Shown here: positions 8,639 to 26,753 of the stretch, in pieces
Position numbering within the stretch: position 1 is the first letter of the stretch
How the letters are laid out: each line of letters begins with the position of its first letter
Source of the DNA: a virus
Direction: 5' to 3' (one strand)
IMG/VR virus record: IMGVR_UViG_3300036770_004388
Coordinates: 1 to 26,753 of that record
Length of the DNA stretch: 26,753 bases
Made by a program: the position numbers and the translations under genes
The notes under the pieces: generated by a model
Told to the model about the DNA's origin: nothing
Seen by the model: only the letters and a program-made list of their open reading frames with translations
The model's database searches: none

Positions 8639-8641
8639 TAA

Positions 8642-9560: not shown

Positions 9561-9570
9561 GGAGATTGTA

Positions 9571-9867: not shown

Positions 9868-9881
9868 TAAAGGAAATTAAA

Positions 9882-11232: not shown

Positions 11233-11266
11233 ATGTCATCCTCGACAATAACTCGGAGAAAATTTA

Positions 11267-13216: not shown

Positions 13217-13742
13217 AGAAGTTAGACATTTAGTATCTAAAATCTGTCGGACTATCTCTGGTAGCAATTGGCGGCCCGACTACGTGGTAGGAATTACCCG
13301 AGGAGGATTGATTCCTGCTGTTATGATCAGCCATTGGTTTGACTGCCCAATGGAAACATTGAATGTCAGTCTCCGTGATAATACAGGTCGAGGTCCAGAG
13401 AGCAATCTTTGGATGGCTGAAGATGCGTTTGGTTATCATAGGGCCGATCTCCCAGAACCAGGATCCAGCAATCCCGAACTGCGCAAAAATATTTTGATCG
13501 TAGATGATATCAACGATTCGGGTGCTACATTCAATTGGATCATGGAAGATTGGCCCAGTGGATGTTTGCCTAATGATCCTGCTTGGTCAGATATCTGGGG
13601 CAATAATGTCAAGTTCGCAGTATTGGTAGATAATCTCGCCAGCAAGTGCGAACGCAAAATGGACTTCTGTGGTCGTGAGATTAATAAAGCAGAAGATGAC
13701 GTGTGGGTAGATTTTCCTTGGGAAGATTGGTGGACTAAATGA
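13191..13742 (+). CDS. Type I phosphoribosyltransferase (purine salvage type)
   Basis: 183 residues. The PRPP-binding motif is NILIVDDINDSGAT (D105, D106), and YVVGITRGGLIPAVMIS (residues 31-47) is the upstream beta-strand with the R-G-G loop of xanthine/guanine/hypoxanthine-type enzymes. An insertion of about 30 residues separates these from the aromatic hood end. The enzyme would join PRPP and a base to give a nucleotide. The base is not certain; Gpt-like use of guanine or xanthine is likely from the motif layout. AGGAT lies ahead of the start. In this operon it could salvage guanine released by DpdA, which is inference. Confidence 0.82.
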   Translation: MKKLVLDNKEVRHLVSKICRTISGSNWRPDYVVGITRGGLIPAVMISHWFDCPMETLNVSLRDNTGRGPESNLWMAEDAFGYHRADLPEPGSSNPELRKNILIVDDINDSGATFNWIMEDWPSGCLPNDPAWSDIWGNNVKFAVLVDNLASKCERKMDFCGREINKAEDDVWVDFPWEDWWTK

Positions 13743-13960
13743 AAATTATGTTGCATTGTACAGACAAAGGTGTAGATGTAGAAGCAGATATATTAAATCA
13801 TAAGAAAGGTATATTCCTTGAAACTGCTATTAACACAGTTAAACTACGAATGACTTACATGAAACAAACTAAAGCCTATGTAGGATCGATGGCTGGTTTA
13901 GAATTCGTTATCCGTGAAGAAAACGTTCCTGATGAACATCGCAAGGAGTGGACACGATGA
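13739..13960 (+). CDS. Small protein of unknown function
   Basis: 73 residues starting MKIMLHCTDKGVDVEADILN. It appears to form a small beta-alpha unit, with no recognised motif. It begins inside the stop of the phosphoribosyltransferase gene (ATGA) and ends in an ATGA overlap with the HIT gene, whose ribosome site (AAGGAG at 13943-13948) lies in its last codons. Confidence 0.55.
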   Translation: MKIMLHCTDKGVDVEADILNHKKGIFLETAINTVKLRMTYMKQTKAYVGSMAGLEFVIREENVPDEHRKEWTR

Positions 13961-14367
13961 ATTATTCAAGCAAAGTAATACTTACTGAAGAAAATAGTAT
14001 CGAAGATTCTAAAGGTGCTCCATGGACCGAATTAGAATCAGAAGATTATCATGTATCCGTGTTTCGCGACATCTATGCTGTCACTGAAGGACATAGATTG
14101 TTCGTGCCTAAATATAATACCGTAGGTGTTCTCAAAGATGCCTTCGAAGATGCTGTAGAACGTGGTATCAAAGGTATGGTCGAAGGGGAATGGGACGGAT
14201 TTAACATAGGCATCAATGTAGGAGAGGCGGCAGGGCAGACCTGTTCTTGGCCACATATACATATGATTCCCAGACGCAAAGGCGATATGGCGGATCCTCG
14301 AGGCGGTGTTAGACATGTAATACCCGAAAGAGGAAATTATAAATTATGGTCTCAGGATACCGAGTAG
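13957..14367 (+). CDS. HIT-family nucleotide-binding hydrolase or transferase
   Basis: 136 residues from ATG 13957; a GTG at 13948 in the same frame overlaps the ribosome site AAGGAG (13943-13948) and is rejected. HIT proteins hydrolyse or transfer nucleotide monophosphates using H-x-H-x-H. Here the segment QTCSWPHIHMIPRRKGD has H100 and H102, the middle catalytic and the last His, while the first His is replaced by Trp98. N-terminal HLFV-like strand (GHRLFVPKY) and a helix precede it, as usual. The rest (NIGINVGEAAGQ) is standard. Substrate unknown; dinucleotide or adenylated-compound hydrolysis is typical of the family. Confidence 0.85.
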   Translation: MNYSSKVILTEENSIEDSKGAPWTELESEDYHVSVFRDIYAVTEGHRLFVPKYNTVGVLKDAFEDAVERGIKGMVEGEWDGFNIGINVGEAAGQTCSWPHIHMIPRRKGDMADPRGGVRHVIPERGNYKLWSQDTE

Positions 14368-14396
14368 GCGATATACATCCAACAAAGGAGAATAAA

Positions 14397-14534
14397 ATGG
14401 AAGAACAAGTACCTTGCGGCTGCGGCCGTAGTGCAACAGGATTCTGTACAGGACTACACGAAATGTCTGAAGAAGAGTATGAAACATATCTCATGGAACA
14501 TTTTGACGAAGATCCAGATCAGATAGGAAACTAA
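14397..14534 (+). CDS. Very small Cys-rich protein with a CDGSH-like motif
   Basis: 45 residues from ATG 14397, which follows a perfect AAAGGAG. The frame is open upstream but without a good site. The motif CGCGRSATGFCTGLH resembles the iron-sulphur CDGSH pattern C-x-C-x-x-S-x-x-x-P-x-C-D-G-S-H, but is one residue shorter between Ser and the third Cys and has T-G-L-H for D-G-S-H. All three Cys and the His are kept, so a 2Fe-2S or zinc site is likely. The rest is an acidic helix (MSEEEYETYLMEHFDEDPDQ). Confidence 0.6.
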   Translation: MEEQVPCGCGRSATGFCTGLHEMSEEEYETYLMEHFDEDPDQIGN

Positions 14535-14535
14535 G

Positions 14536-14739
14536 ATGAGACAACAATTAATCGAAGCCAGCAAAGAACATTTCCGTGCTCATATCACCAAGCATCGTAT
14601 GAATATCGAAGTGATGTTAAATAATCCTACCGCTATTCACGAACATAGCGATATCATGGAAGCCATCGAAAAGGAAGCAGGTTATATTGCCGAGTATATG
14701 GACAAACTTGAGGTGATGGAGAAATACTTTAGTGAATGA
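14536..14739 (+). CDS. Conserved small helical phage protein
   Basis: 67 residues, all helix: HITKHRMNIEVMLNNPTAIH followed by a D-I-M-E-A-I-E-K-E stretch and a terminal YMDKLEVMEKYFSE. Similar proteins with AHI-x-KHR-x-N-x-EV and EHxDIME blocks are frequent in cyanophage-like T4 genomes, with no assigned role. The start follows the upstream gene by a single base; the end overlaps the next start. Confidence 0.65.
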   Translation: MRQQLIEASKEHFRAHITKHRMNIEVMLNNPTAIHEHSDIMEAIEKEAGYIAEYMDKLEVMEKYFSE

Positions 14740-14935
14740 AGTGTTAATTCCGTGGAGAGCAGGTGATACTGTATCTATGTGGAGCGACCATTGTGCGATG
14801 ATAATCGAACAGTTTGGTCTACCAGGCGGTAGATATTCCACAGAAGTTTGTGCAGATTGGATGAGTTTTAAATTTCTAGATGAAAAGGATGCGTTTTTAT
14901 GCAAGATAATGTTAAGCGAACATCTTGGACACTAA
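14732..14935 (+). CDS. Small protein of unknown function (GTG start)
   Basis: 67 residues. The frame starts with GTG at 14732 (or GTG 14741); the nearby ATG at 14736 is out of frame and stops after three codons. GGAG at 14717-14720 is the likely ribosome site. The sequence RAGDTVSMWSDHCAMIIEQF followed by GLPGGRYSTEVCADWMSFKF has a compact alpha/beta look without a known motif. It overlaps the next gene by 37 bases. Confidence 0.5.
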   Translation: MNEVLIPWRAGDTVSMWSDHCAMIIEQFGLPGGRYSTEVCADWMSFKFLDEKDAFLCKIMLSEHLGH

Positions 14936-15081
14936 CAGTCGACGAGGATCCGGAAACAGGAGATAGTATATTGACCTTTCCTGAAGACCTATTAGAATCA
15001 GCAGGTTGGAAGGAAGGTGATGTAATAGAATGGATCGATTGCAAGGATGGCACTTGGCAACTGAAGAAAAAGAGTGTATAG
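14899..15081 (+). CDS. AbrB/MazE-like swapped-hairpin domain protein
   Basis: 60 residues. SILTFPEDLLESAGWKEGDV followed by I-E-W-I-D and a terminal GTWQLKKK strand follows the pattern of AbrB/MazE DNA-binding domains (beta strand, P-x-x-L-x-x-x-G-x-x-x-G-D, then two strands). Such domains dimerise and bind DNA, and similar short proteins are common in aquatic T4-like phages. A regulator role is possible. AAGGA at about 14885-14890 supports the ATG 14899 start inside the upstream gene. Confidence 0.6.
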   Translation: MQDNVKRTSWTLTVDEDPETGDSILTFPEDLLESAGWKEGDVIEWIDCKDGTWQLKKKSV

Positions 15082-15082
15082 T

Positions 15083-15274
15083 ATGAAAGATGCAAATATT
15101 TTAGAACAATTAGAATTATTAAAATCAAATCTAGAGAAGGCAAATGTTGTGCTAAATGATCTATATGAAAGAAACATGTTTATTGTTATTTCATTTGACG
15201 AAAGAGGTAGGACTATATCTCCGGTACTGCAAATAAAAACAGCAATACATCACGTTGATTATCTTAAAGAATAG
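15083..15274 (+). CDS. Small protein of unknown function
   Basis: 63 residues from ATG 15083; a GTG at 15074 is in frame and possible. The first half is a coiled helix (LEQLELLKSNLEKANVVLND) and the second a beta region (MFIVISFDERGRTISPVLQI). I do not recognise it. It ends 2 bases before queE, so it probably shares its message. Confidence 0.5.
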   Translation: MKDANILEQLELLKSNLEKANVVLNDLYERNMFIVISFDERGRTISPVLQIKTAIHHVDYLKE

Positions 15275-15276
15275 CC

Positions 15277-16146
15277 ATGGAAAAAATTAAAATATCAGAA
15301 TGCTTTTACAGCATACAAGGTGAAGGACGCTTTATGGGTGTGCCTTCTGTTTTCTTGAGAACATTTGGTTGCAACTTCCAATGTGCCGGCTTTGGTCTTC
15401 CTCGAGGAGAAAAGACCACAGAAGTCGATCCTATCGCTGCCAATGTTCAGCTGTACAAGAGCTACGAAGATCTTCCGCTGGTCAGTACGGGCTGCGACAG
15501 TTATGCATCATGGCATCCGGCATTCAAACATCTGTCGCCGTTTTATACCATCGATGAGATCGTAGATAAGGTCGTAGACACACTGCCTTACAAAGAATGG
15601 CGTGATGAACATCTAATCATCACAGGAGGTGAACCCTTGCTGAAATGGCAGTATCTATATCCGGAACTATTGAGCCATCCTAAGATGCAGAATCTCAAAG
15701 AACTGACATTCGAGACAAACGGTACTCAAGCATTGACAGACGACTTCAAGAGTTGGATCCACAGAGAGTGGCATCACGATGGCTCTATCAATATGGGCAG
15801 AGGTCGCGATACATTCACTTTCTCTGTAAGTGCCAAACTGCCTTGTTCGGGTGAAGCGTTTGAAAAGGCTATCCGTCCAGAAATAGTAGCAGAGTATGAA
15901 GAATACGGTTATGTCTATCTCAAGTTTGTGATCGCTAACGAACAGGATGCAGAAGATGCTGAATGTGCTATCGGTGCATACAGAGCAGCAGGTGTGACTG
16001 GTCCTGTTTACTTTATGCCTGTGGGCGGTGTCGAAAGCGTTTATCAATTGAATAACCGTGCTGTCGCAGATCTAGCGATGAAGCGTGGATATCGCTATTC
16101 GGACAGACTACAGGTGCCATTGTTTAAAAACGAGTGGGGCACCTGA
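15277..16146 (+). CDS. queE: QueE-like 7-carboxy-7-deazaguanine synthase (radical SAM)
   Basis: 289 residues. The start has the QueE signature FYSIQGEGRFMGVPSVFLRT and ITGGEPLL supplies the SAM-binding GGEP. The enzyme turns carboxytetrahydropterin into 7-carboxy-7-deazaguanine in the preQ0 pathway. The iron-sulphur Cys are unusually placed: C32 and C36 in GCNFQC, but the position three further on is Phe39, and the third Cys is probably C73 in TGCDSYASW, giving C-x3-C-x36-C. In most QueE it is C-x3-C-x2-C, though insertions exist. C73 is followed by D-S, matching the C-D-T of normal enzymes. With FolE, QueD-like and DpdA in the operon, assignment is firm. Confidence 0.92.
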   Translation: MEKIKISECFYSIQGEGRFMGVPSVFLRTFGCNFQCAGFGLPRGEKTTEVDPIAANVQLYKSYEDLPLVSTGCDSYASWHPAFKHLSPFYTIDEIVDKVVDTLPYKEWRDEHLIITGGEPLLKWQYLYPELLSHPKMQNLKELTFETNGTQALTDDFKSWIHREWHHDGSINMGRGRDTFTFSVSAKLPCSGEAFEKAIRPEIVAEYEEYGYVYLKFVIANEQDAEDAECAIGAYRAAGVTGPVYFMPVGGVESVYQLNNRAVADLAMKRGYRYSDRLQVPLFKNEWGT

Positions 16147-16400
16147 TGCCGCAGGATAATTCATTCGACAGTGATGTGCAATGTAGTCCTCCATCAGAAG
16201 ATTGGGGTTTGAAGCGGGCACGGTACTGGAAGCTCAAACTGTGTTGGCTTCCTAAAAAGTGTTATCTTTCAGGAAAGTCTTTATGGGGTAAACTTGCCTA
16301 CCACGGTGAAAGATGGATTACAGGTCCAGGAGAGCCAGTAGTAGAACACTATTGGATTGAAAAAACTGAGTTCATAATTTGGACTCTAAAGGGAAGATAA
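16146..16400 (+). CDS. Small basic protein of unknown function
   Basis: 84 residues from ATG 16146, in a TGATG junction with the queE stop; a GTG at 16134 is in frame. The sequence carries RARYWKLKLCWLPKKCYLSG, a basic aromatic stretch, and later HYWIEKTEFIIWTLKGR. No catalytic motif is seen. The fold is probably a small beta sheet. It overlaps the next start by one base. Confidence 0.5.
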   Translation: MPQDNSFDSDVQCSPPSEDWGLKRARYWKLKLCWLPKKCYLSGKSLWGKLAYHGERWITGPGEPVVEHYWIEKTEFIIWTLKGR

Positions 16401-16837
16401 TGAAATTAGTTAAAAAACTGTTGGGTATCGACAAGATTGAACAAGATCTACAAAGAGCACAAGATGCTTTAGAAGAAGCCAAAGCCAAGCAAATTGAAGC
16501 TGAGAAGGCCGCATCTCTGGCTCAAGAACAAGAAGAGTTAGCAAGATTGTCACCAAAAGAACGGGCTAATCGTAAGAAAGAACCGTGGATTGGTGTACTA
16601 AATACTCACATTAATAAAGAAAGTGTCCGTAATGGTTTCTTTGAGCTTGACTGGAATGACCATTTTGTGTTAAAATTAAAGCAAGAAGGATATGGTGTAG
16701 ACGGTGATCCAGACGAAGAGATCGTAGATCGTTGGTTCCGAGAACTCTGCGCCAATGTTGTAGTAGACGGTGATTACGGTGGTCCTGTTAATACAGGTGT
16801 TATAGACATACAGAGTGTAAAGAAGAACAATCAATGA
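16400..16837 (+). CDS. Conserved phage protein with an N-terminal coiled coil
   Basis: 145 residues from ATG 16400 (GGGAAG just ahead). After MKLVKKLLGIDKIEQDLQRA comes a coiled coil to about residue 50 (repeated Ala, Glu and Lys), then LSPKERANRKKEPWIGVLNT, then GFFELDWNDHFVLKLKQEGY and a WFRELC end. The second half resembles a family frequent in T4-like cyanophage genomes, with no known role. The coiled coil suggests oligomerisation or attachment to a larger assembly. It overlaps the nuclease gene by 4 bases. Confidence 0.68.
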   Translation: MKLVKKLLGIDKIEQDLQRAQDALEEAKAKQIEAEKAASLAQEQEELARLSPKERANRKKEPWIGVLNTHINKESVRNGFFELDWNDHFVLKLKQEGYGVDGDPDEEIVDRWFRELCANVVVDGDYGGPVNTGVIDIQSVKKNNQ

Positions 16838-17820
16838 CATATATTCTAGTTGATACAGCTAACACATTTTTCCGTGCTAGACATGTTATTAACGGCGATG
16901 CTGATATTAAACTTGGCATGGCATTTCACATAACCCTAAACTCAATCCGCAAAGCATGGCAGCAGTTTAATGGCAGTCATGTTATCTTCTGTTTAGAAGG
17001 ACGCTCGTGGCGTAAAGATTTTTATACTCCATACAAGGCGCAACGTGCGGCGCAACGTGCGGCTCATACAGAGAGAGAAGCAGAAGAAGAAAAAGTATTT
17101 TGGGAAGCATTCGATACATTTAAGGAATTTATTTCCGATAAAACAAATTGCACGGTTTTACAAAATCCTCAATTAGAAGCCGATGATCTTATCGCAGGGT
17201 GGATACAGAGTCATCCTGATGATGACCATGTTATTATATCTACAGATACCGATTTCGTACAACTTATTGCATCTAACGTAAAACAGTACAACGGAGTAAT
17301 GGAACATGTTATCACCCACGAAGGTATCTTCGACGATAAAGGTAAACCGGTCATTGATAAAAAAACAAAGGAACCTAAACCTGCGCCCAACCCCGAATGG
17401 CTACTGTTCGAAAAGTGTATGCGTGGCGACACTTCCGATAATGTCTTCTCTGCATACCCAGGTGTCAGAACTAAGGGCACATCCAAGAAAGTTGGTCTCA
17501 CTGAAGCGTTTGAGGACAGGAACACAAAAGGCTTTGCGTGGAATAACCTTATGCTACAACGCTGGAACGACCACGAAGGCAAAGAACACAGAGTTCTGGA
17601 AGATTATGAGAGAAATCGGCGATTGATTGATCTATCATATCAGCCCAATCATATTAAAGAAATTATTGCCGCAACTATCTCCGAAGCGACAGGCGCAAAT
17701 AAAAATATCAGCCAAGTCGGCATCAGGCTGATGAAATTTTGCAATTTGTACGATCTAAAAAAGATCGCAGAACAAGCGCAATCATATGCCGAACCACTTA
17801 ATGCGAGGTACACACTATGA
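16834..17820 (+). CDS. rnh: 5'-3' exonuclease / RNase H of the FEN family (T4 Rnh-like)
   Basis: 328 residues against 305 in T4 RNase H. Metal-binding acids are present: D7 in ILVDTANTFFRARH, E115/D117/D118 in QLEADDLIAGW, D138 and D140 in ISTDTDFVQLI, and GDTSDN near residue 200. GRSWRKDFYTPYKAQR matches the conserved region that grips the 5' end. In T4 the enzyme removes RNA primers and adjacent DNA from lagging-strand fragments. A 12-base duplication at 17038-17061 adds A-Q-R-A in this region. It overlaps the next gene by 4 bases. Confidence 0.92.
   Translation: MTYILVDTANTFFRARHVINGDADIKLGMAFHITLNSIRKAWQQFNGSHVIFCLEGRSWRKDFYTPYKAQRAAQRAAHTEREAEEEKVFWEAFDTFKEFISDKTNCTVLQNPQLEADDLIAGWIQSHPDDDHVIISTDTDFVQLIASNVKQYNGVMEHVITHEGIFDDKGKPVIDKKTKEPKPAPNPEWLLFEKCMRGDTSDNVFSAYPGVRTKGTSKKVGLTEAFEDRNTKGFAWNNLMLQRWNDHEGKEHRVLEDYERNRRLIDLSYQPNHIKEIIAATISEATGANKNISQVGIRLMKFCNLYDLKKIAEQAQSYAEPLNARYTL
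17038..17061 (+). repeat. Tandem duplication of a 12-base unit in the nuclease gene
   Basis: GCGCAACGTGCG occurs twice in a row (17038-17049 and 17050-17061), in frame, encoding A-Q-R-A twice. It lies just after the conserved YK-x-x-R element, in the flexible arch region of FEN-type nucleases. It is a simple in-frame duplication and probably tolerated. Confidence 0.8.
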
Positions 17821-18293
17821 CAGACTTACACGCCAAACCAATCATTGATAACAAATTTTGGATCGTCGAGAAAGACGGAGAAAAATTTGCAACACTAAGG
17901 AAGGACGATGAAAATAGATTTGTACTAAGTAACATTTTAGGTACAAAAATTTTTGCAGATAAAAAAGAAGTAACTAAAGAATTTGGCAAAGATTTTTTTG
18001 TTGCTAAAATCATTAAGGAGTCTAGTGACAACAGGCCAGATGAAATACATGGGTTTCCGGCAAGTTCCAAACCGCATAACTGCATGTATGACATAAAAAG
18101 AAAATTACCGTTATTTACAAAAAGTGAAGATTCAAAAAGCCTATATTGTGCAGGTTATTATACCATAAAATTCGACAAAGGATGGGTCAAGAGTTTCTGT
18201 CCAAAACTAATCACTCTACAACGATATCCATTTAAAGGTCCGTATAAAACAGAATTAGAGATGAAACAGGTGATGTCAAATGTCTCAAAATAG
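17817..18293 (+). CDS. Conserved T4-like aquatic phage protein, unknown function
   Basis: 158 residues. The C-terminal third is very regular: KLPLFTKSEDSKSLYCAGYY followed by an I-K-F-D-K-G-W block and a LITLQRYPFKGPYKTELEMK block. This block is widely conserved in cyanophage-like T4 genomes, next to replication genes, but I know no function. Several Cys and aromatics in the block may form a small core; there is no enzymatic motif. It overlaps the nuclease stop by 4 bases and the following gene by 14. Confidence 0.72.
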   Translation: MTDLHAKPIIDNKFWIVEKDGEKFATLRKDDENRFVLSNILGTKIFADKKEVTKEFGKDFFVAKIIKESSDNRPDEIHGFPASSKPHNCMYDIKRKLPLFTKSEDSKSLYCAGYYTIKFDKGWVKSFCPKLITLQRYPFKGPYKTELEMKQVMSNVSK

Positions 18294-18531
18294 CCTACCC
18301 TCAACTTTACCTTCAGTTGAAAGGCTATTAAATAGGATTTCAGTAGCTGAAAAAAGTCAACAAAAAGAAATTAGGATTTCTATCCAAGAAGCTAAAGAAT
18401 TGTCATCTGACCTTGCTATTATGACCTCAAGGTTATCTAAAACAGTTCAAGAAATCCACTCGATGTTAGCTGATATTAAAGCCGCCACTACCAAAATAGA
18501 TGTTAAGTTTGACGGAGGCGGGTTTAATTAG
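18280..18531 (+). CDS. Small coiled-coil phage protein, unknown function
   Basis: 83 residues. A disordered start (SQNSLPSTLPSVE) leads into a long helix with coiled-coil pattern (LNRISVAEKSQQKEIRISIQ, then an SRLSKTVQEIHSMLADIKAA stretch) and a short tail ending DGGGFN. It may be a scaffolding or structural adapter, which is a guess. An AGGTGA stretch a few bases before ATG 18280 serves as ribosome site. It ends at a late-promoter-like octamer. Confidence 0.55.
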   Translation: MSQNSLPSTLPSVERLLNRISVAEKSQQKEIRISIQEAKELSSDLAIMTSRLSKTVQEIHSMLADIKAATTKIDVKFDGGGFN

Positions 18532-18538
18532 ATAAATA
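18531..18538 (+). promoter_or_regulatory. T4 late-promoter-like octamer
   Basis: GATAAATA differs at one base from the T4 late promoter TATAAATA. It lies right after the stop of the upstream gene and 26 bases before the preferred start at 18564. Transcription would begin near 18545, so the message would include the AGGA ribosome site but not the earlier ATG at 18540. Confidence 0.4.
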
Positions 18539-18563
18539 TATGCGTGGTTTTCAGGACACGTAT

Positions 18564-18851
18564 ATGAGTAGACCCAAACCTAAAATATTATTAGAACACA
18601 TAAGTAAAGAAACTTACAAAGTAGAACAGATTCTAGAGAGTGAGGCCATCTGGGCGGTCTTTTACAAAGACATGCCTTTTAACCTCAAAAGTAGTAGTAG
18701 CATTACGAGTTACCCTGGGCCGAAATATAAGAAGGTCAGTTTTTCCAATCCTGGTCATGCTCATAACTTGTGTAAAAAACTTAACAAGTTATTTAAGACT
18801 ACAGATTTTTCAGTAGTTATGTTGACCAAGGGCAGTAGGATAGATGAATGA
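18564..18851 (+). CDS. Conserved T4-like aquatic phage protein, unknown function
   Basis: 95 residues starting MSRPKPKILLEHISKETYKV. The ATG at 18564 is chosen because AGGA lies seven bases ahead and the octamer at 18531 would place the start of the message after the earlier ATG at 18540 (103 residues). Conserved blocks are AIWAVFYKDMPFNLKSSSSI and YPGPKYKKVSFSNPGHAHNL. The family is frequent in cyanophage-like T4 genomes with unassigned role. No catalytic motif is visible. Confidence 0.7.
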   Translation: MSRPKPKILLEHISKETYKVEQILESEAIWAVFYKDMPFNLKSSSSITSYPGPKYKKVSFSNPGHAHNLCKKLNKLFKTTDFSVVMLTKGSRIDE

Positions 18852-19236
18852 TATCAAATCCAAATTTACAGAAGTCCTTAAAATAACTCTGCAAGAACAA
18901 AACTTTCAATTTGATGAATCAACTTTTGAATCTAAAATATGGTTCAATTTGAGGAAAAAAAGCCCTAGCTTAAGACTTACCGACGAGGGCCTGAGTTATG
19001 TAATACAGGCAGACTTAAGAACTTATGAGGTTGATTTCCCAAAAGAATTAAAAATATCACCACAAATTTTAATTTGGCTAGATAGATACCTCGAAAGCCC
19101 CTATCATTTAAGCAATAACAAAATTATAGTGATAACTGAAAAATCAGCAATAGAATTGCATTTATTTTCAGGGGACTTAAAAAAATATGGTTTAACTAAA
19201 ACTATCAATAAAAAAATTAGTCAGAATTTAGTTTAA
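18844..19236 (+). CDS. Conserved phage protein, unknown function
   Basis: 130 residues, mixed alpha/beta. Blocks LRLTDEGLSYVIQADLRTYE, then ILIWLDRYLESPYHLSNNKI and IVITEKSAIELHLFSGDLKK recall a protein common in aquatic T4-like phages, without a role I know. The frame overlaps the upstream stop (ATGAATGA). AGGA at 18837-18840 supports the start. It is followed by a 28-base gap holding a late-promoter-like octamer. Confidence 0.65.
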   Translation: MNDIKSKFTEVLKITLQEQNFQFDESTFESKIWFNLRKKSPSLRLTDEGLSYVIQADLRTYEVDFPKELKISPQILIWLDRYLESPYHLSNNKIIVITEKSAIELHLFSGDLKKYGLTKTINKKISQNLV

Positions 19237-19250
19237 TCAAACTCAGTCTT

Positions 19251-19258
19251 CATAAATA
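19251..19258 (+). promoter_or_regulatory. T4 late-promoter-like octamer
   Basis: CATAAATA, one base off the T4 late consensus, in one of the few small gaps of the operon (19237-19264). A start near 19265 would give a leader if translation begins at ATG 19304. Confidence 0.4.
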
Positions 19259-19264
19259 ATTTCG

Positions 19265-19543
19265 ATGGAATATAATACATTAGATTTACTAAACGAAAGG
19301 CAAATGAAATACCTGCCTATGCATTTCTGTTCTTTTCAACTTGACGACGGAATTGTGTTTTCTAATAAAGAACAGATACTTAATTGGATCAGAGCGAAAT
19401 TGGTAGGCAGATTTGCATTTCTAAAATCAATTGGCTTAGATTCTAATCAAAAAATGAAATCATCGTTCATAGTAGGATTTGAAAAACCTACTGAACTAAC
19501 TTACTTTATAATTGCCTGTCCATACCTAAGGAGACCAGAATGA
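19265..19543 (+). CDS. Conserved phage protein, unknown function
   Basis: 92 residues from ATG 19265, for which I see no ribosome site. An in-frame ATG at 19304 follows AAAGG (short spacing of three bases) and would give 79 residues starting MKYLPMHFCSFQLDDGIVFS; this may be the true start. The core has an LNWIRAKLVGRFAFLKS helix. I do not recognise a function. It overlaps the next gene by 4 bases. Confidence 0.55.
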   Translation: MEYNTLDLLNERQMKYLPMHFCSFQLDDGIVFSNKEQILNWIRAKLVGRFAFLKSIGLDSNQKMKSSFIVGFEKPTELTYFIIACPYLRRPE

Positions 19544-19764
19544 CAGAAACTTCAGACAACACAGAAACTATTGAAAATAGCCCTAAGGCAGAATCTCAAC
19601 AGCCCGCAGGAGCTGACCTTAACGTGAGTGATTTATCTGCATTAAAATCAATCATAGATGTAGCAACGCAGAGGGGAGCATTTAGAGCTGCAGAATTAGA
19701 AAGTGTTGGCAAGATCTATAACAAACTATCAAATTTTTTAGATTCAATCACTAAAAAGGATTAA
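19540..19764 (+). CDS. Conserved small phage protein, unknown function
   Basis: 74 residues. A disordered acidic start (ETSDNTETIENSPKAESQQP) is followed by two helices (LNVSDLSALKSIIDVATQRG and AAELESVGKIYNKLSNFLDS). Such proteins occur widely in T4-like cyanophage genomes in the same kind of gene block. ACCTAAGGAG ahead of ATG 19540 is a strong ribosome site, so high expression is possible. Function unknown. Confidence 0.65.
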   Translation: MTETSDNTETIENSPKAESQQPAGADLNVSDLSALKSIIDVATQRGAFRAAELESVGKIYNKLSNFLDSITKKD

Positions 19765-19766
19765 AA

Positions 19767-20387
19767 ATGAAAACGTTAAAGCATGTAGGTAAAATTAAAA
19801 ATACTGGAGCGAAAGTGTTGGTAGTGTTTAGAACTCTTCCTGGAGAGTCTAACATGGCTCTGGTTCTGCCTACAGCCAGCCTACCGGATCAATATCACGA
19901 TGCACTTATTCAATTAGTTGAAAGCGATCAAGCACAAAGCACAAATGAATTTGGGGAAATCATGTTCATTAGAAGATTTCCAGATGGCAGGCCGATGCTA
20001 CAAGCAATGCAGGCCGATGGTAGACTACAAAAAACACCAACTTCATTAATCACTATGACTCCTACCCTAAGTGATTCTATTCAACTTGATGAATTAAATT
20101 CAATTATTGCTTCACAAAAAAATTGCGCTGTTGACGATTTAGCTAATTTTGTGACCGGTGGTAGATCGAACAGCGATACGCCGCAGCAGGCGGTGGTTGA
20201 AGAGGCAGCAACTATCGAACCTTCTGTAAGTCAACCCGCGCCCTTGACTGATAAAGATCTTGCAAAAAATTATCGAAGTCAGGCAGATTCGTTATATAAA
20301 GAAGCAGCGAGGCTACGCAAACAGGCTGACGAATTAGATCCACCTCAGAAAAAAACAGTGAAAACTAAAGAAGCAGTAGATGTCTAA
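19767..20387 (+). CDS. Conserved T4-like aquatic phage protein, unknown function
   Basis: 206 residues. A beta-rich N-terminal domain has KVLVVFRTLPGESNMALVLP and a later EFGEIMFIRRFPDGRPMLQA block followed by MQADGRL, well conserved in aquatic T4-like phages. The C-terminus is disordered and charged (with KNYRSQADSLYKEAARLRKQ as a coiled helix). It resembles a virion or assembly accessory protein by composition, but I know no demonstrated role. It overlaps the next gene by 8 bases. Confidence 0.68.
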   Translation: MKTLKHVGKIKNTGAKVLVVFRTLPGESNMALVLPTASLPDQYHDALIQLVESDQAQSTNEFGEIMFIRRFPDGRPMLQAMQADGRLQKTPTSLITMTPTLSDSIQLDELNSIIASQKNCAVDDLANFVTGGRSNSDTPQQAVVEEAATIEPSVSQPAPLTDKDLAKNYRSQADSLYKEAARLRKQADELDPPQKKTVKTKEAVDV

Positions 20388-20685
20388 AGCTCTTTTCAGA
20401 CCACCGAGACATTTAGTCAAAGAATGGCCTGAAGTATTCGAAGATCTATATATGAATACTATGCCGGTAGCATATCTAGATCTAGTAATCATTGAATTTG
20501 ACGACGGTAAAATATGGCAGATAGACATTTCGGCTCAGTTGATTGAAACGGATGCCGATTCTGTCTGCAATAAACTTTTAGATATCATGCAAGAATACAA
20601 AGAATCTATTGTAAAAATGGATTTTAAAATAAACGTAGACAAACTTAAAAGAGATATCAAAGAAGAAATATCTAAAATATTTTAA
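20380..20685 (+). CDS. Conserved T4-like aquatic phage protein, unknown function
   Basis: 101 residues: FRPPRHLVKEWPEVFEDLYM, then LDLVIIEFDDGKIWQIDISA, then VKMDFKINVDKLKRDIKEEI. All three blocks are conserved in T4-like cyanophage-type genomes. No motif suggests a function. It closes the rightward operon. Its TAA overlaps the stop of the leftward dehydrogenase gene over TTAA at 20682-20685, without a terminator. Confidence 0.68.
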   Translation: MSKALFRPPRHLVKEWPEVFEDLYMNTMPVAYLDLVIIEFDDGKIWQIDISAQLIETDADSVCNKLLDIMQEYKESIVKMDFKINVDKLKRDIKEEISKIF

Positions 20686-21902
20686 TCCGAGCGTGTATTA
20701 CCATAGTGTAATACAATATGTTCGTCGGAATTAAAGTTCCTCCAGGGATCTACAACTACGCTTCCTGGAGCGATACTACAATACAACTGATCAAAAGAAT
20801 TGGATCCTGTGTAACGATAGGTCGTACTGGCGCTGTGTGCTAATAATACGACACCATAACACTCTTCTATCATATCATCAGTATTCGGATCAATGAATTC
20901 TACAGAAAAACCGTTTTGTTCACAAAAATGGGCTATTAATAAACTGTAACTGCCGTCTAAATACGAGACGTTGGGTTTGTAAGACTTCCCATGAATGTAA
21001 ATCTTCATCTTATAACGATTGGCCTGCTCAATTAAATACAGCGCTAGATTTTTTGCCTGAATTTCTCTGCTCTTCATTATTGCATCAAACAGGTCGTACC
21101 CTAGCTCTAGTTTATCTGCTATGTACCTTAAAGCGATATTGTCTCTTGGATGACAGGCACCTCCGTCCCCCATACCTGCCTTCATATATTGTGGACCCAT
21201 GATTCTCATAGTAGACTTCGCCAATGCTTCAGTTACTACATCGACATTAATATTACCCTGTTTCATTGCGATATCTTGTATCATGTTTACTAAACTAATT
21301 TTGGCCGATATAAAAGTGTTATAAAAAACTTTTATACATTCGCATTCGTCCCAGGTACCTATTACATACCTTGGATTATTTTCCATTATTGTCATATAAA
21401 ATTCTTTCAACAATCTAGCATCGCCAGTTTCACTTCCGTCATCAGTACCAATCATGACCATTTCAGGATTGACCATATCCCAGGCTACACTGCCCATCGC
21501 AATCAAATAAGGATTGTATATAAATCTAGTATTAGTAACTAAAGGTACAAATTTAGTTCTAGTAGTGCCGGGCAACACAGTTGAAATCAATACCAAAAGT
21601 TGATTCTTCTTCATAAATTTGTTTGCTTCGGCAATGCAGGTTTCAACAATCGAGTAATTAAAATCCTTTGGAAATAAATGTGACGAAGGAAGACTTCCGT
21701 CATACTCAGAGTCGTGCGGAGTAGGAACTGCTATAAAGACTATATCAGATTCAGCGACACACTCTTCTATAGAACCTACAACAGTAATTATCTCGCTCGA
21801 CTTCTTAGTTATATCATAACCAAGAACTCTGTGGCCTTTATTTGCAATCGCCTCTGCGCACGGCAACCCCAATTTTCCAATTCCTATAAATCCAATCTGC
21901 AT
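20682..21902 (-). CDS. UDP-glucose/GDP-mannose dehydrogenase family protein
   Basis: 406 residues. These enzymes oxidise a nucleotide sugar twice to the uronic acid with NAD. The N-terminus MQIGFIGIGKLGLPCAEAIA is the NAD-binding G-x-G-x-x-G. The helix KVFYNTFISAKISLVNMIQD has the usual conserved Lys and Asn. Catalytic Cys250 is in GMGDGGACHPRDNIAL, matching G-G-x-C-x-P-K-D with Arg for Lys. All three domains are present. The gene points left and shares its upstream region with the rightward gene at 21951. It implies that the phage makes a uronic acid or similar sugar for surface or virion decoration. Substrate uncertain. Confidence 0.88.
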   Translation of the reverse strand: MQIGFIGIGKLGLPCAEAIANKGHRVLGYDITKKSSEIITVVGSIEECVAESDIVFIAVPTPHDSEYDGSLPSSHLFPKDFNYSIVETCIAEANKFMKKNQLLVLISTVLPGTTRTKFVPLVTNTRFIYNPYLIAMGSVAWDMVNPEMVMIGTDDGSETGDARLLKEFYMTIMENNPRYVIGTWDECECIKVFYNTFISAKISLVNMIQDIAMKQGNINVDVVTEALAKSTMRIMGPQYMKAGMGDGGACHPRDNIALRYIADKLELGYDLFDAIMKSREIQAKNLALYLIEQANRYKMKIYIHGKSYKPNVSYLDGSYSLLIAHFCEQNGFSVEFIDPNTDDMIEECYGVVLLAHSASTTYRYTGSNSFDQLYCSIAPGSVVVDPWRNFNSDEHIVLHYGNTRSD

Positions 21903-21910
21903 ATATTTCT

Positions 21911-21938
21911 TTCAATAAATAAAACACTATTTATTGAA
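21911..21938. promoter_or_regulatory. Perfect inverted repeat with two opposed late-promoter-like octamers
   Basis: TTCAATAAATA at 21911-21921 and TATTTATTGAA at 21928-21938 are exact reverse complements with the 6-base spacer AAACAC. The plus strand carries AATAAATA at 21914-21921, and the minus strand carries AATAAATA at 21935-21928; each is one base from TATAAATA. The element sits in the 48-base gap between the divergent genes 20682-21902 (minus) and 21951-23150 (plus). It can serve both directions at once, or act as an operator. Confidence 0.6.
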
Positions 21939-21950
21939 GGAAAAAAAGGA

Positions 21951-23150
21951 TTGGTTATAAAACTGCCAGACGCATTCATCGACAACGAATATGTGCAGAA
22001 CACTCTGGATACAGTGTTTACGATGATGATTAACGAAATCGACCCTAACAGATTTCTAAACTATAACAAAAAATATTATATACACGCTTTAATAAAATAT
22101 CCTAAATGGGTACCACAAGTCGATCTATTTCAATATCTTCAACCTTCGTATCTACAGATGTTGAAAGACGACAAATGTTTTTTTATATTTGATGCAAGTA
22201 CCGAAGGATTTAGCCCGATATATAGAGAACCTTACTTTGATATTTTGTATTTTAATTGCAAAAAGTATAACGTAAACACCGATAACATAATTTTTGTTTC
22301 GGCCAATCTGAAAGACGAACAGAACATCGATATCTATAGTAAAACCAATAATGTAAGACCGATAAAAGTTTTTTCATTCCCTTCGTTTGAACACGTAGTC
22401 GGTAATTATCAAATAAAATCTCCAAAAGAACTATTAGAACTCGAAAGAAAATATACTGTAGAACAATACAATAACAAATATTTTTCAAGCCTAAGCAGAG
22501 TAAACAGATATCTAAGAACTGCTGGAACATTTATATTATGTCAAGATGCTATCTCTAAGAATGCGTTAATTAGTCATAACGCATTTGATAAAATTTATAA
22601 CATTGACAGCTGGAAACAAACCAATCATCTAAGCGAATATTCAAACGAACTAATAGAAAATTGGTTGAACAAATTACCAATGACTGTTGACAGAGATGAT
22701 TTTAATGTTAATTGGGCATTAGATACACCTTTCGCTGATATACACCGACAAACGATTTTCCAAATCGTAAATGAAACATTAGTGGATGATCATAATTCAA
22801 CTTCATTATTTTATAGCGAAAAAACGTTTAGACCAATACTACATTTCCAACCATTTGTAATTTGGGGTCAAACCGGTTCAAATCATGCCTTGGCAGATTT
22901 AGGATACAAAATTTACGACGAGTGGTTTGATTTAAGTTTTGATTTCGAAAACGATCCAATAAAACGTTATCACATGCTTTTGAAATCTGTTAAAGCTTCT
23001 TGCGAAACTTTCTGTCATTTATCTAAAGAAGAGCAGATAGAATGGAAATTTAAAAACGAAAATATTCTTTTGCACAATTATGAAACTATGACACAAAGAA
23101 ATTATAGTAAAAATAAATTAAAGACATTTTTGAGTACTTTATGCAACTAG
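21951..23150 (+). CDS. Glycosyltransferase-like protein of viral type
   Basis: 399 residues if translation starts at TTG 21951 (MVIKLPDAFIDNEYV), with GAAGGA nine bases ahead; no ATG or GTG lies between the upstream gene and the next in-frame ATG at about 22023. The C-terminal half has STSLFYSEKTFRPILHFQPF (S289 E290 K291), then a V-I-W-G strand and LADLGYKIYDEWFDLSF. This recalls the E-K-x-[YF]-x-P-[IL] motif of GT10 fucosyltransferases and related viral glycosyltransferases. The N-terminal half is not recognised. The AT-rich sequence is unlike the core genes. Sugar transfer is a reasonable suggestion but not proven. Confidence 0.5.
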   Translation: MVIKLPDAFIDNEYVQNTLDTVFTMMINEIDPNRFLNYNKKYYIHALIKYPKWVPQVDLFQYLQPSYLQMLKDDKCFFIFDASTEGFSPIYREPYFDILYFNCKKYNVNTDNIIFVSANLKDEQNIDIYSKTNNVRPIKVFSFPSFEHVVGNYQIKSPKELLELERKYTVEQYNNKYFSSLSRVNRYLRTAGTFILCQDAISKNALISHNAFDKIYNIDSWKQTNHLSEYSNELIENWLNKLPMTVDRDDFNVNWALDTPFADIHRQTIFQIVNETLVDDHNSTSLFYSEKTFRPILHFQPFVIWGQTGSNHALADLGYKIYDEWFDLSFDFENDPIKRYHMLLKSVKASCETFCHLSKEEQIEWKFKNENILLHNYETMTQRNYSKNKLKTFLSTLCN

Positions 23151-24010
23151 TAACTAGACCCCCGAAACGACTTTTTTCATTTGGATGTAGTTTTACAAAA
23201 TTCTTTTGGTCTACATGGCCAGAAATCATTGCACATGATTTAGACATTCCAGTATACAACTACGGTCAAAGCGGTGCTGGTAACCAATATATTGCAAACA
23301 TGGTTTGTCAGGCTGACAATTTTTATAATTTTACTGAGGATGATCTTATTATAGTGTCCTGGACTAATGTAGCAAGAGAAGATAGATGGACGAACGGGCA
23401 ATGGATTACACCAGGGAACATATATTCGCAAGGTATATATGATCAAGCATTTGTCGAAAAATGGGCAGATCCATTGGGATATCTTATAAGAGACTTAGCA
23501 TCAATAAAACTTGTAAAGAATTTTTTAGATCATAAAAAATGTCAATTTCATTTCTTTTCGATGTGTGACATAGCATATCAATTTAATCAAAATTCTACAG
23601 TAGATATTATACCTGAACATTTAAAATCTAAATATCGTGACACATGTTCTCAATACGAAAATGTAATAAATTTTATTCTTCCAAGTTTTTTCCGAACGTT
23701 ATGGAGTAACGACCTCGTAAAAAATAAATTTGATATTGAAGAATCTCAAGGATACACTTTGTTTAAAGACGGGCATCCATATCCTGAAGAACATTTTAAA
23801 TTTATTAAAACTATTTTTCCTGAACACAAATTTAAACACGAAACACTTATGAAAATCGATGATGTTCAGCACAAGTTTAGAGATTTTGTTAGACACAAAA
23901 GCCAAGAACTAAAAAAAAGCTGGGCAATTTACGAATTATCTACAAGCGAAAACGATTTATTATTAAATTTAACTACTATTAAGAAATCAGAAATTGTAAA
24001 GAAAATTTAA
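23141..24010 (+). CDS. SGNH-hydrolase-like protein
   Basis: 289 residues. LFSFGCSFTKF (Ser17) resembles the block I G-D-S of SGNH enzymes, though Cys takes the Asp place. GQSGAGNQYI (residues 42-51) matches block II, SWTNVARED (N76) block III, and D210-G-H212 block V, so the Ser-Asp-His set is visible. SGNH proteins remove acetyl or acyl groups from sugars and lipids, or are inactive relatives. The last 60 residues form a charged helical tail. It overlaps the upstream gene by 10 bases and the convergent radical SAM gene by 24. Confidence 0.65.
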   Translation: MQLVTRPPKRLFSFGCSFTKFFWSTWPEIIAHDLDIPVYNYGQSGAGNQYIANMVCQADNFYNFTEDDLIIVSWTNVAREDRWTNGQWITPGNIYSQGIYDQAFVEKWADPLGYLIRDLASIKLVKNFLDHKKCQFHFFSMCDIAYQFNQNSTVDIIPEHLKSKYRDTCSQYENVINFILPSFFRTLWSNDLVKNKFDIEESQGYTLFKDGHPYPEEHFKFIKTIFPEHKFKHETLMKIDDVQHKFRDFVRHKSQELKKSWAIYELSTSENDLLLNLTTIKKSEIVKKI

Positions 24011-25174
24011 TTCGGGAAATGTTTGAATAAAATCCCTGTTGCGGATCTTATCATAATATCTAGTAACTTCTATAAATTTTTTATGCAGGTCGCTATCATA
24101 AGATGAATTTTCTAGTCCATGAACAATAGATTCTATTTGGCTATCTATATGATTATTATATTTTTTAGACTGTAGTTTTTTATATATTTTTTCTTTAAAT
24201 TCGTCATCAATAATGTTAAAACTGTAATAATAGGGGTTGATTAAATTATATGTGGTCGGAAAAAATTCTGAAACATTAAACAACTGTTGATCTATGAGAT
24301 AATCTAAAAAATCACAAAAAGTAAAAACATTAAAACAAGAAATAACGCTATGAATCTGTACGTTTACGTGTGGCAAATTTTCTTTAATTGATTTTAAATT
24401 AGACATCAATAAGTTCCAATCTGTGCCTTCTCTAATATACTCAGCTCTCGGTCCCCAACTATCTAAACTAACATAAACATTAACATTTTTAAAATGTTTC
24501 CAATATTCTAGTATCGAGCGGCCTTTATAAATTAGAACACTTAAATTAGTATTATATCTAAGTTCAGTTTCAGTTAATCCGTTATCGATTAGATAATTTA
24601 ACATCTCAAAATGTTTATCAGTCAATAATGGTTCGCCGCCGGCAAAATAAATTTCTTCCATATCTTTAAAATGAGGAATTAGTTGATTATAAAGGTTATC
24701 ATTATTATCGCCGCCAGCATTAATATAAACCTGTCGGTTTCTTCCATGCTTTACATCTTCCAATGCCCAACTCGAAGAATAGGTGCCGCTACAGCCTCGA
24801 CACTTAAAATTACATATATTGCTCCATCTCATATCAAAATATACTAATTTTAATAAATTTAAATTTCCGTCTTCCGTTGTATGATCTAAAAGATAAGAGT
24901 ATTTTTTAAATTTTTCATTATAATATTGTCTAGAGCTAGCGTTCCCACTATCTTCTGCATGATAGCAGGCTTTGCATTCATCGCAGCGTTTTCCTTCCAT
25001 CATTTTTTTACGCAGATCTTTAAACCTGTCATTATTCCATATTTCTGAAATCGTATTCTGCCTCAGGTTGCCTAAATGAAGGTGATGATCTGCAATACAA
25101 CACGGAATAACTGATCCGTCTGGATTACCATAAAAATGTAACCAAGGTAATATACAGAATGTTTTAGACTGCAT
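23987..25174 (-). CDS. Twitch-domain radical SAM protein
   Basis: 395 residues. N-terminal Cys (C7, C25/C26, C64, C67 and C70) form a twitch/SPASM-like auxiliary FeS domain placed before the core. FCILPWLHFYGNPDGSVIPC is a characteristic block. The core cluster is C121-x3-C125-x2-C128 in ICNFKCRGCSG, and YFAGGEPLLT supplies the SAM motif. YVSLDSWGPRAEYIREG continues the barrel. Proteins of this type occur in phages and marine bacteria with unknown substrates; peptide or sugar modification is expected. It is followed on the minus strand by no gene but overlaps the SGNH gene tail to tail. A second, partial relative lies at 26053-26753. Confidence 0.85.
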   Translation of the reverse strand: MQSKTFCILPWLHFYGNPDGSVIPCCIADHHLHLGNLRQNTISEIWNNDRFKDLRKKMMEGKRCDECKACYHAEDSGNASSRQYYNEKFKKYSYLLDHTTEDGNLNLLKLVYFDMRWSNICNFKCRGCSGTYSSSWALEDVKHGRNRQVYINAGGDNNDNLYNQLIPHFKDMEEIYFAGGEPLLTDKHFEMLNYLIDNGLTETELRYNTNLSVLIYKGRSILEYWKHFKNVNVYVSLDSWGPRAEYIREGTDWNLLMSNLKSIKENLPHVNVQIHSVISCFNVFTFCDFLDYLIDQQLFNVSEFFPTTYNLINPYYYSFNIIDDEFKEKIYKKLQSKKYNNHIDSQIESIVHGLENSSYDSDLHKKFIEVTRYYDKIRNRDFIQTFPELNFLYNF

Positions 25175-26072
25175 TATTTTTAAAAAAATTATATAAGTTG
25201 AAGGCCCACAACGAATGAGCTATTTGATTAGGATGATTATTATGGAGATAATTTCCTTTTATAAATTCGTTAGATTTTTCTATTTTATCTAATTCTTGTT
25301 GTAACATATCATTGTTAAATTCTATATTTTTATAATTTTCTAAAAGATCGTTCAACCATCCGACTGATTGAAATCGTTGCATCTCTATATCTTCGCCCAT
25401 TATTTTTCCGCTGAATCTAATCCAACTTGTAGGATAAATTCTAAATTCGTTATATGATTTTCGATTTTGAAAACAACAAAAGTTTTTCCATACAACACAT
25501 TCGATATTACTATATTTTCTTAATTCTACACTTATAAGGTCTAAAAACATTTCATCGTACAAGATCAACCATTGATCGAACGTGTATCTTTTATTTTTAT
25601 CGTACATTGAGGTGATAGGATGATTTCCTATTTTATGACTAATGCTCATTTCTCTTGATGGTTCGGTGATTTGTAAAAAAAGATTTATCTTCTCATAACC
25701 TAAGGTAGAAACATATTGTAAAATTCTAGGCAGTTCCATGTACATATATGCATTACAATTTCCAGGAACCGCATATTGATAAAAATCACTATCTAATAAT
25801 AAGGATAATTTAGGACCGAAGCAATGCCTTAATTGATTCTGCAGGCTATATCGTTTAAGGCCAGTGGCGATATCAGGAAGGCTTTCGCCGTACGTCCAAC
25901 TTTCTCCAATGACAACAGTGATAGATTTTTTTCCTCTACGTACATGAAATTCTGTAAATTGGGCTGGGACTTCGACCCAATCAGGTTTTAGATTTTCGCT
26001 GTTAAAAGAGATGTCAATTATATTATAATTGTAATCTTTAAAATCTTCTATATTATATTTTTGCCAGTTCAC
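25164..26072 (-). CDS. SGNH-hydrolase-like protein (second type)
   Basis: 302 residues from GTG 26072, with GGAAG six bases ahead. An ATG at 26147 in frame would overlap the upstream gene by 95 bases, which is less likely. VVIGESWTYGESLPD holds the nucleophile-like Ser58, YAVPGNCNAYMY corresponds to block II, and near the end NNHPNQIAH gives the His block, so it has the order of an SGNH protein. LKPDWVEVPAQFTEFHVRRG precedes it as an N-terminal strand region. It overlaps the start of the radical SAM gene by 11 bases, implying coupled translation. The substrate is unknown; an acetyl or acyl group on a sugar is typical of the superfamily. Confidence 0.6.
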   Translation of the reverse strand: MNWQKYNIEDFKDYNYNIIDISFNSENLKPDWVEVPAQFTEFHVRRGKKSITVVIGESWTYGESLPDIATGLKRYSLQNQLRHCFGPKLSLLLDSDFYQYAVPGNCNAYMYMELPRILQYVSTLGYEKINLFLQITEPSREMSISHKIGNHPITSMYDKNKRYTFDQWLILYDEMFLDLISVELRKYSNIECVVWKNFCCFQNRKSYNEFRIYPTSWIRFSGKIMGEDIEMQRFQSVGWLNDLLENYKNIEFNNDMLQQELDKIEKSNEFIKGNYLHNNHPNQIAHSLWAFNLYNFFKNNAV

Positions 26073-26753
26073 CGCATGCTTCCATAAAATTTGATAGCTC
26101 AGGAAAAGTTTTTTTGAAATCTGTTCCTCTTCGCCGATCATATTCATTAAACCAATTATAAAAATCTATTCGGCCTTCTCTAATTTTATTTTCAGTATAA
26201 ACAGATGTTTCCATGTATTTTACAACACGAGAAAATTTATCAATTTCTGCCTTACTAAATTTTTCTCTAGATTGATCGTCACAATTATCTTGCATAAATT
26301 TTAAGGATTCATACATGTAAGGCATAAACTCTTCCTTAGGCAAGATATTCATGTCGTACTGTAATGGTTCTTTTAAATGTGGAGTGTCGAAACCAATACG
26401 TCTAAATCTATCAGAATTTTCATTGTTGTATTTCTTTCTCCATTCTAATATCTTCGCCAAGAGATTTTTAAAACTTGTTACAGTTAGAATATTAAAAGTG
26501 ATCATGAAAGTTACTGGAGAAGTAGTTCCTAACATATACATATCAAAATTCTTTTCCCAAATTTCTAAATCTAATCCAGTCCTTATATATTCGGCTTGTG
26601 GCCCCCATGTATCTATACTTGTAAAGAGTTTAAATTCTCTTATCTTATGTTGACTTGTTAAATTATTCACGTAATTAACGAATCTATCTATTAATACAGG
26701 CTTTACACCAAAATTACTGTTTATATTCAAACCTAATTCCGGCATGGGGTTAT
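26053..26753 (-). CDS. Twitch-type radical SAM protein, C-terminal part (cut by window edge)
   Basis: The frame reaches the window end with no stop: the last visible codons read N-P-M-P-E-L-G, so the ATG at 26745 is not necessarily the start. About 232 residues are visible. FTSIDTWGPQAEYIRTGLDL lines up with YVSLDSWGPRAEYIREGTDW of the neighbouring radical SAM gene, and both end with F-K-K-T-F-P-E-L or F-I-Q-T-F-P-E-L. It is thus the barrel end and C-terminal part of a related protein; the FeS Cys would be outside. It overlaps the SGNH-like gene by 20 bases. Confidence 0.7.
   Translation of the reverse strand, partial: NPMPELGLNINSNFGVKPVLIDRFVNYVNNLTSQHKIREFKLFTSIDTWGPQAEYIRTGLDLEIWEKNFDMYMLGTTSPVTFMITFNILTVTSFKNLLAKILEWRKKYNNENSDRFRRIGFDTPHLKEPLQYDMNILPKEEFMPYMYESLKFMQDNCDDQSREKFSKAEIDKFSRVVKYMETSVYTENKIREGRIDFYNWFNEYDRRRGTDFKKTFPELSNFMEACGELAKI

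Follow-up and report, generated by a model that had tools for sequence, protein, structure and literature searches.

Several described viral systems bear on the gene cluster analyzed here. In pelagimyophages, a host-recognition cluster (mSystems 2020, PMC7029224) occupies a variable region beside the tail-fibre genes and carries glycosyltransferases (GTs), mostly of family GT8, a uridine diphosphate (UDP)-glucose dehydrogenase and, in some genomes, radical S-adenosylmethionine (SAM) cassettes, and has been read as serving host O-chain modification. The T4-like marine genome TARA_ERS488813_N000010 contains 12 radical SAM genes, which were treated only under iron-sulphur metabolism (PMC5332604). 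Virus-encoded glycosylation of virion proteins is described for the capsid of PBCV-1, carried out by A64R and its partners (PMC7826918 and PMC9614988), and for mycobacteriophages, in which glycans are found on capsid and tail-tube proteins (Freeman et al. 2023, as cited in PMC12619734). Here, we report on a cluster of six genes at the right end of the IMG/VR virus record IMGVR_UViG_3300036770_004388 (positions 1 to 26,753; hereafter the window), a 26.8-kb virus fragment whose contig end falls within the last gene of the cluster:

20682..21902, minus strand: nucleotide-sugar (UDP-glucose/GDP-mannose) dehydrogenase family, 406 amino acids (PF03721, PF00984, phrog_9148).
21951..23150, plus strand: GT-B fold glycosyltransferase of the GTx family, about 399 amino acids, predicted from an AlphaFold model; the listed open reading frame begins at 21714.
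23141..24010, plus strand: SGNH-family protein 1 (SGNH1), by family an esterase or acyltransferase, assigned from motifs and profile; no signal peptide seen.
23987..25174, minus strand: N-twitch radical SAM protein RS1, 395 amino acids (NF033640, PF13186, PF04055).
25164..26147, minus strand: SGNH-family protein 2 (SGNH2), assigned from motifs and an iterated profile; start probably near GTG 26072, as judged from relatives.
26053..26751, minus strand: N-twitch radical SAM protein RS2 (NF033640), of which the contig end leaves the C-terminal half.

These genes belong to a conserved viral module, which very probably modifies a surface glycan of the virion or of the cell. The best reading is a cytoplasmic glycosylation of the phage's own tail fibres combined with radical and acyl tailoring, to which we assign a probability of roughly 55%. 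A sequence-only reading of the window had named the six gene classes (dehydrogenase, transferase, two SGNH and two twitch radical SAM genes) and the alternating strands at its right end, all of which stand according to profiles, fold and motifs. Its proposal of a surface-glycan biosynthetic cluster is also the best-supported one, through co-occurrence and synteny, whereas the acyl groups and the uronic acid that it named for the product are putative, as is either target, virion or cell.

The pelagimyophage cluster is not described as a conserved unit with SGNH and GT-A genes and multiple twitch radical SAM slots (PMC7029224). The window DNA polymerase groups with jumbo myoviruses, not with pelagimyophages, and is nearest to those of Sinorhizobium phage Phosso (50%), Agrobacterium phage Atu_ph07 (47%) and Escherichia phage 121Q (43%). 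TARA_ERS488813_N000010 resembles one of the long relatives described below (G004) in having many radical SAM genes in one phage, but a glycan module is not described there (PMC5332604). The mycobacteriophage acceptors are the capsid and tail tube, in contrast to the fibres proposed here. The PBCV-1 glycosyltransferases likewise act on a virion protein, and PBCV-1 structures are the first Foldseek matches of the GT-A enzyme of the module; however, PBCV-1 is an algal virus whose acceptor is the major capsid protein, and the likeness is at the fold level only (12-18% identity). To our knowledge, PBCV-1 capsid glycosylation involves no radical SAM or SGNH genes, and that of mycobacteriophage virions no array of such genes or of dehydrogenase genes.

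Searches of the open-licence literature revealed no paper uniting these module parts and none on radical SAM enzymes, jumbo phages and glycosyltransferases together, whereas the combination of radical SAM, SGNH and phage returned only an unrelated review on ribosomally synthesized and post-translationally modified peptides. Within this literature, the earlier statement that no described phage system has this make-up holds for the module as a conserved unit, but the host-recognition cluster of pelagimyophages was already known to contain both glycosyltransferases and radical SAM cassettes (PMC7029224), and a T4-like genome to have many radical SAM genes (PMC5332604).

Conservation of the gene module in viral genomes

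A profile search of IMG/VR with 26 radical SAM relatives gave at least 592 confirmed places, and 106 viral loci picked via their radical SAM gene were inspected (88 after dereplication). The three nearest relatives (L031-L033) are syntenic with the window cluster: L032 contains the whole block from the glycosyltransferase to RS2, L033 is without SGNH1, and L031 has SGNH1 on the opposite strand together with two extra genes. In L031, the insertion that separates SGNH1 from the GT-B gene encodes a 678-amino-acid protein (3613-5646) with weak matches to radical SAM phrogs. In L033, the closest long relative of the window, two extra genes lie among the left-hand genes (4382-6702), one of them with a weak QueC/PAPS-reductase-like match.

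The usual gene order in the 106 loci starts with a fibre gene followed by the gene of the fibre-like protein F7, F9, two GT8 genes, a small gene and one or two GT-A genes. An array of two to seven radical SAM genes comes next, and a variable set of GT-B, SGNH, the dehydrogenase, and F6 or a carbamoyltransferase closes the module. Same-strand adjacent pairs in the 88 dereplicated loci include F7-F9 (44) and F9-GT8 (47), and in L033 and L031 F7 forms the module's border to several large fibre-type genes. Co-occurrence of twitch radical SAM and SGNH genes in viruses, proposed as a check in the sequence-only reading, was found in 71 of these 88 loci; GT-A was present in 70, GT-B in 69, GT8 in 59, F9 in 48 and F7 in 45, and all but one (87/88) had at least two radical SAM genes.

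Because these loci were selected by the radical SAM gene, searches were also seeded from its companions. In loci of at least 10 kb, GT-A seeds were accompanied by a twitch radical SAM gene in 46 of 49 cases, and dehydrogenase seeds by radical SAM (53/63), GT-B (56/63), GT-A (46/63) and SGNH genes (45/63). SGNH2 seeds had radical SAM genes in 35 of 48 loci, with a subgroup (approximately L324-L343) free of them, which indicates that the SGNH2 subfamily occurs outside the module too.

As a bacterial control, a scan of GTDB genomes with an alignment of closer radical SAM relatives (A8) supplied 78 loci of this family. SGNH genes were found in nine of them, and GT8 or GT-A genes in three, all resembling phage contigs in metagenome-assembled genomes (L125, L152 and L183). 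For SGNH in viral versus bacterial loci, Fisher's test gave p=2e-23, a value to be taken as a guide only, since the loci are related to one another. The bacterial neighbourhoods have no single theme and include further radical SAM genes, a few GT2 genes, carbamoyltransferase and GDSL genes. Thus, the companion gene set is viral. The three exceptional loci (Rhodobacteraceae and Rickettsiales bins) carry the phage module, with fibre genes in two, and are either mis-binned phages or a hint of the host.

These results leave it barely credible that independent cargo genes gathered by chance in a variable region. A composition unlike the remaining window and the shifting orientation of the terminal genes between relatives would fit such cargo, but reciprocal seeding and the order kept over many divergent loci contradict it, as does the absence of the gene set from bacterial radical SAM carriers. 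The sequence-only reading had been left open to refutation by a lack of co-occurrence or by signs of independent cargo; on testing, neither arose in the IMG/VR loci. The module is real, conserved and widespread in uncultured aquatic viruses, with several hundred related places in IMG/VR.

The cluster had also been described as an AT-rich island beginning at 20682. The low guanine-plus-cytosine (GC) content is real, with 41.7% at positions 1-17800, 35.1% at 17801-20681, 38.1% in the dehydrogenase gene and 30.5% at 21903-26753. However, the drop already begins upstream of 20682 and is steepest beyond 21.9 kb, and per-gene values in the relatives L033 and L014 show cluster genes scarcely AT-richer than their flanks. 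Neither the boundary at 20682 nor AT-richness as a cluster-wide property is therefore retained, and a foreign AT-rich island is rejected. The cluster is a functional one but does not stand by itself: the module to which it belongs is larger and starts at the tail-fibre genes; the window holds only its distal edge, and most of it lies past the contig end.

Glycosyltransferases and fibre genes

The product of 21714-23150(+) has no match among sequence families, and comparison with the phage database gave no direct match for GTx. In PDB profile searches, GTx had a chance match only (NleH1, E=0.046) and the GT-A family no credible match, and folds were predicted for this reason. The AlphaFold model of GTx (m6c9fc434c75b, pLDDT [predicted local distance difference test] 85.6) has a two-domain GT-B fold, and its Foldseek matches are glycosyltransferases including trehalose-P synthase and MshA (E ~1e-4). 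Translation of GTx probably starts at TTG 21951 (399 amino acids) rather than at GTG 21714: a start near 21951 is shared by its relatives and lies just beyond the divergent dehydrogenase start, so that the 188 bases of antisense overlap between the two genes would be an over-call.

The GTx model has a VIA Z of 11.5 to T4 beta-glucosyltransferase (286 residues, 5.1 A) and to an alpha-1,3-fucosyltransferase (269 residues, 4.5 A), and many GT-B enzymes of diverse function tie at the same Z. T4 beta- and alpha-glucosyltransferases among these top matches raise the question of DNA hypermodification, with modified bases glycosylated by the GT-B enzyme and its partners. The window also encodes a GTP cyclohydrolase (11267-12028, phrog_2197) and a QueE-like radical SAM protein (15277-16146, phrog_2076), which are suggestive of 7-deazaguanine synthesis by this phage, with DNA modification as a possible purpose. 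We regard this role for the module as very improbable, given that GT-B folds of many functions share the Z value and that the module adjoins fibre rather than replication genes and contains GT8, GT-A and SGNH enzymes.

The other two glycosyltransferase types lie closer to the fibre genes. The GT8 profile matches glycogenin (E=2e-6). The GT-A model (pLDDT 91.1) has the PBCV-1 major capsid glycosylation enzyme as its first Foldseek matches (E=2.7e-5). The VIA Z is 9.9 for 141 residues, and many further GT-A and nucleotidyltransferase folds score almost the same. The F7 proteins are on average 45% Ser, Thr, Asn and Gly, compared with about 22% in the enzymes. In Pseudomonas phage PA5oct, relatives of the fibre-type genes beyond F7 in L033 and L031, with a relative of F7 among them, are annotated as detected by electrospray ionization tandem mass spectrometry (ESI-MS/MS) and lie beside a long tail-fibre subunit. 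Thus, virus-encoded glycosyltransferases of three types, recognized by fold and sequence and predicted to be soluble, are linked to virion protein genes. In the cultured Pelagibacter phage Mosig (L007, 1302-18402), a large block behind the tail-fibre genes contains MoaA-like, nitroreductase, aminotransferase and carbamoyltransferase genes and an SGNH relative.

Twitch radical SAM proteins

RS1 matches NF033640 with 384 bits (curated cut-off 170), and has a SPASM domain (PF13186) at residues 7-71, a radical SAM domain (PF04055), a CNFKCRGC motif (CxxxCxxC) at residue 121 and a GGEP motif. Its twitch cysteines C7, C26, C67 and C70 are invariant across 26 relatives (alignment A6), fitting one auxiliary cluster. 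The partial RS2 gene covers NF033640 positions 204-397 with 112.6 bits, and its full-length relatives exceed the cut-off; the part that would hold the CxxxCxxC motif and the twitch cysteines lies past the contig end. In L031-L033, the complete radical SAM genes at first position are 55-63% identical to RS2. NF033640 includes proteins of Vibrio phages KVP40 and K566, whereas its bacterial members (Bdellovibrionota, Bacteroidota and others) are mostly without the module companions. The cultured phage K566 parallels the module: two GT8 genes (PF01501) are interspersed among its four twitch radical SAM genes, and it further has a GT-B-like gene and encodes a protein rich in Ser, Gly and Tyr.

A quick maximum-likelihood tree was built from 63 radical SAM proteins, with support from the Shimodaira-Hasegawa-like approximate likelihood ratio test (SH-aLRT) and long branches limiting the deeper forks. 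It unites all 16 first-position genes, RS2 included, in one group (SH-aLRT 89; 100% for the 11 nearest rows). RS1 clusters with the genes at second position in the eight loci nearest to it (SH-aLRT 99), and most positions in the long freshwater arrays form a clade of their own with approximately 99-100% support. Hence the arrays are old and position-specific rather than products of recent duplication, and the separate clades suggest that the radical SAM enzymes catalyze different steps.

These proteins also invite a reading in which they epimerise or cross-link residues of the fibre polypeptide, while glycosylation would be a parallel decoration in its own right. Peptides are substrates of many SPASM/twitch radical SAM enzymes elsewhere, the genes come after fibre proteins rich in Ser, Thr, Asn and Gly, and the position-wise clades suggest several distinct sites. 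This reading appears improbable to us, as the best solved match, restricted to the twitch domain, is BtrN (E=7e-6), an enzyme that oxidises a sugar-like cyclitol, and as the radical SAM genes are interleaved with glycosyltransferase and SGNH genes instead of standing alone.

The 354-kb phage contig of L014 (G004) has 13 twitch radical SAM matches, five in the main array and the rest scattered, some of them near additional SGNH genes. Of the six SGNH matches on this contig, four are located no more than a few kb from the main array. Bacteriovoracaceae, Bdellovibrionales and Oligoflexia genomes (L145, L130 and L124) contain their own tandem twitch radical SAM arrays, with eight genes in L145, in which the module profiles found no glycosyltransferase partners.

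SGNH proteins

SGNH1 has the block I motif GCS at residue 15, WTNVAR at 74 and the block V motif DGHP at 210, whereas SGNH2 has GES, TEPSR and NHP, with Asn in place of Asp in block V. The two are connected via an iterated profile search, and the family profile (A2) matches solved GDSL/SGNH enzymes in the PDB (best E=1.9e-5). In SGNH2, residues G81, S83, R165 and H305 are invariant positions, and the block I Ser and block V His are invariant throughout A2. By these motifs and profiles, both proteins are assigned to the SGNH/GDSL hydrolase superfamily. SGNH1 is 45% identical to the syntenic gene in L032, and SGNH2 is 45-55% identical to those in L031-L033. Comparison with the phage database gave one weak match for SGNH1 and no direct match for SGNH2, and a single-sequence scan for close SGNH2 relatives found none; a scan with alignment A5 identified 70 loci with this family. 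Most SGNH proteins begin straight at the catalytic block, and an export signal was not seen.

Nucleotide-sugar dehydrogenase and a possible host-surface target

The dehydrogenase matches PF03721 (4e-19) and PF00984 (2e-17), both above the Pfam cut-offs, and phrog_9148 (E=1.4e-98), and its translation retains GxGxxG and, within the catalytic motif (GMGDGGACHPRD), the cysteine. The C-terminal UDP-binding domain is weak (24.5 bits, cut-off 30), and the protein misses the cut-off of the nucleotide sugar dehydrogenase subfamily TIGR03026 (163.7 versus 189.8 bits). It is 71% identical to the syntenic L031/L033 genes and 58% identical to gp227 of cyanophage Bellamy. The predicted enzyme would supply a sugar of the UDP-uronic acid type.

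Sugar-transferring, radical SAM and SGNH genes directly behind tail-fibre genes probably produce modified sugars on the fibres or on the host surface. The second of these targets is the main rival: the lipopolysaccharide or capsule of the infected cell would be remodelled, for example against superinfection or re-adsorption of progeny. The glycosyltransferases and UDP-glucose dehydrogenase of the pelagimyophage cluster have been read so (PMC7029224), and the dehydrogenase genes of Bellamy and HTVC008M neighbour epimerases, a carbamoyltransferase and methyltransferases. A simple hydrophobicity test predicted almost no membrane-spanning segments in the module enzymes, which thus look soluble. 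The module loci contain no recurrent flippase, polymerase, ligase or lipid-carrier transferase, membrane proteins that the host could supply. Their absence and the SGNH proteins without an export signal argue against a host-surface target, as do the position of the GT8/GT-A/radical SAM core directly behind fibre genes in most loci and the resemblance of the GT-A model to a viral capsid glycosylation enzyme. We therefore consider host-surface modification rather unlikely.

Proposed role in fibre glycosylation

The tail fibre is somewhat favoured over other acceptors of the glycan. In the proposed pathway, freshly synthesized fibre protein would receive a short glycan on its side chains while still in the cytoplasm, started and lengthened by the GT8-like and GT-A enzymes. 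The dehydrogenase would then provide an oxidised UDP-sugar, and the GT-B enzyme would attach a further sugar. Each radical SAM enzyme, using one auxiliary twitch cluster, may alter C-H bonds of a sugar or of the acceptor protein in its own way, such as by epimerisation, dehydrogenation or deoxygenation, and the SGNH proteins may put on or take off acyl groups. The outcome would be an unusual fibre glycan influencing receptor binding, stability or recognition. Gene content, order and conservation, folds, motifs, likely solubility and the fibre-gene neighbourhood are the observations behind this pathway, from which we infer the acceptor, the sugar, the chemistry of each radical SAM step and the biological effect.

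Several points weigh against fibre glycosylation. It is a prediction from genes and folds, the association counts all come from metagenomic contigs, many of them fragmentary, and the solubility test was a simple one. In PA5oct, a relative of F7 occurs although the sugar cluster is absent, so F7 does not depend on that cluster. Relatives of the dehydrogenase in cyanophages and pelagiphages sit within clusters read as lipopolysaccharide-type genes. Glycan chemistry is also not compelled by the radical SAM family, given its peptide-modifying members.

A more specific form of the fibre glycosylation proposal, in which position-specific twitch radical SAM enzymes rebuild tail-fibre sugars stepwise into glycans not known from cells, is put forward tentatively. 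If true, phages, besides giant algal viruses, would make their own unusual virion sugars. For the many viral radical SAM enzymes that had lacked an explanation, the module provides a class of function and an acceptor that can be tested. If fibre glycosylation is right, radical C-H chemistry would join phage virion glycosylation and provide new sugar-editing enzymes, with a bearing on receptor-binding variation in abundant aquatic phages.

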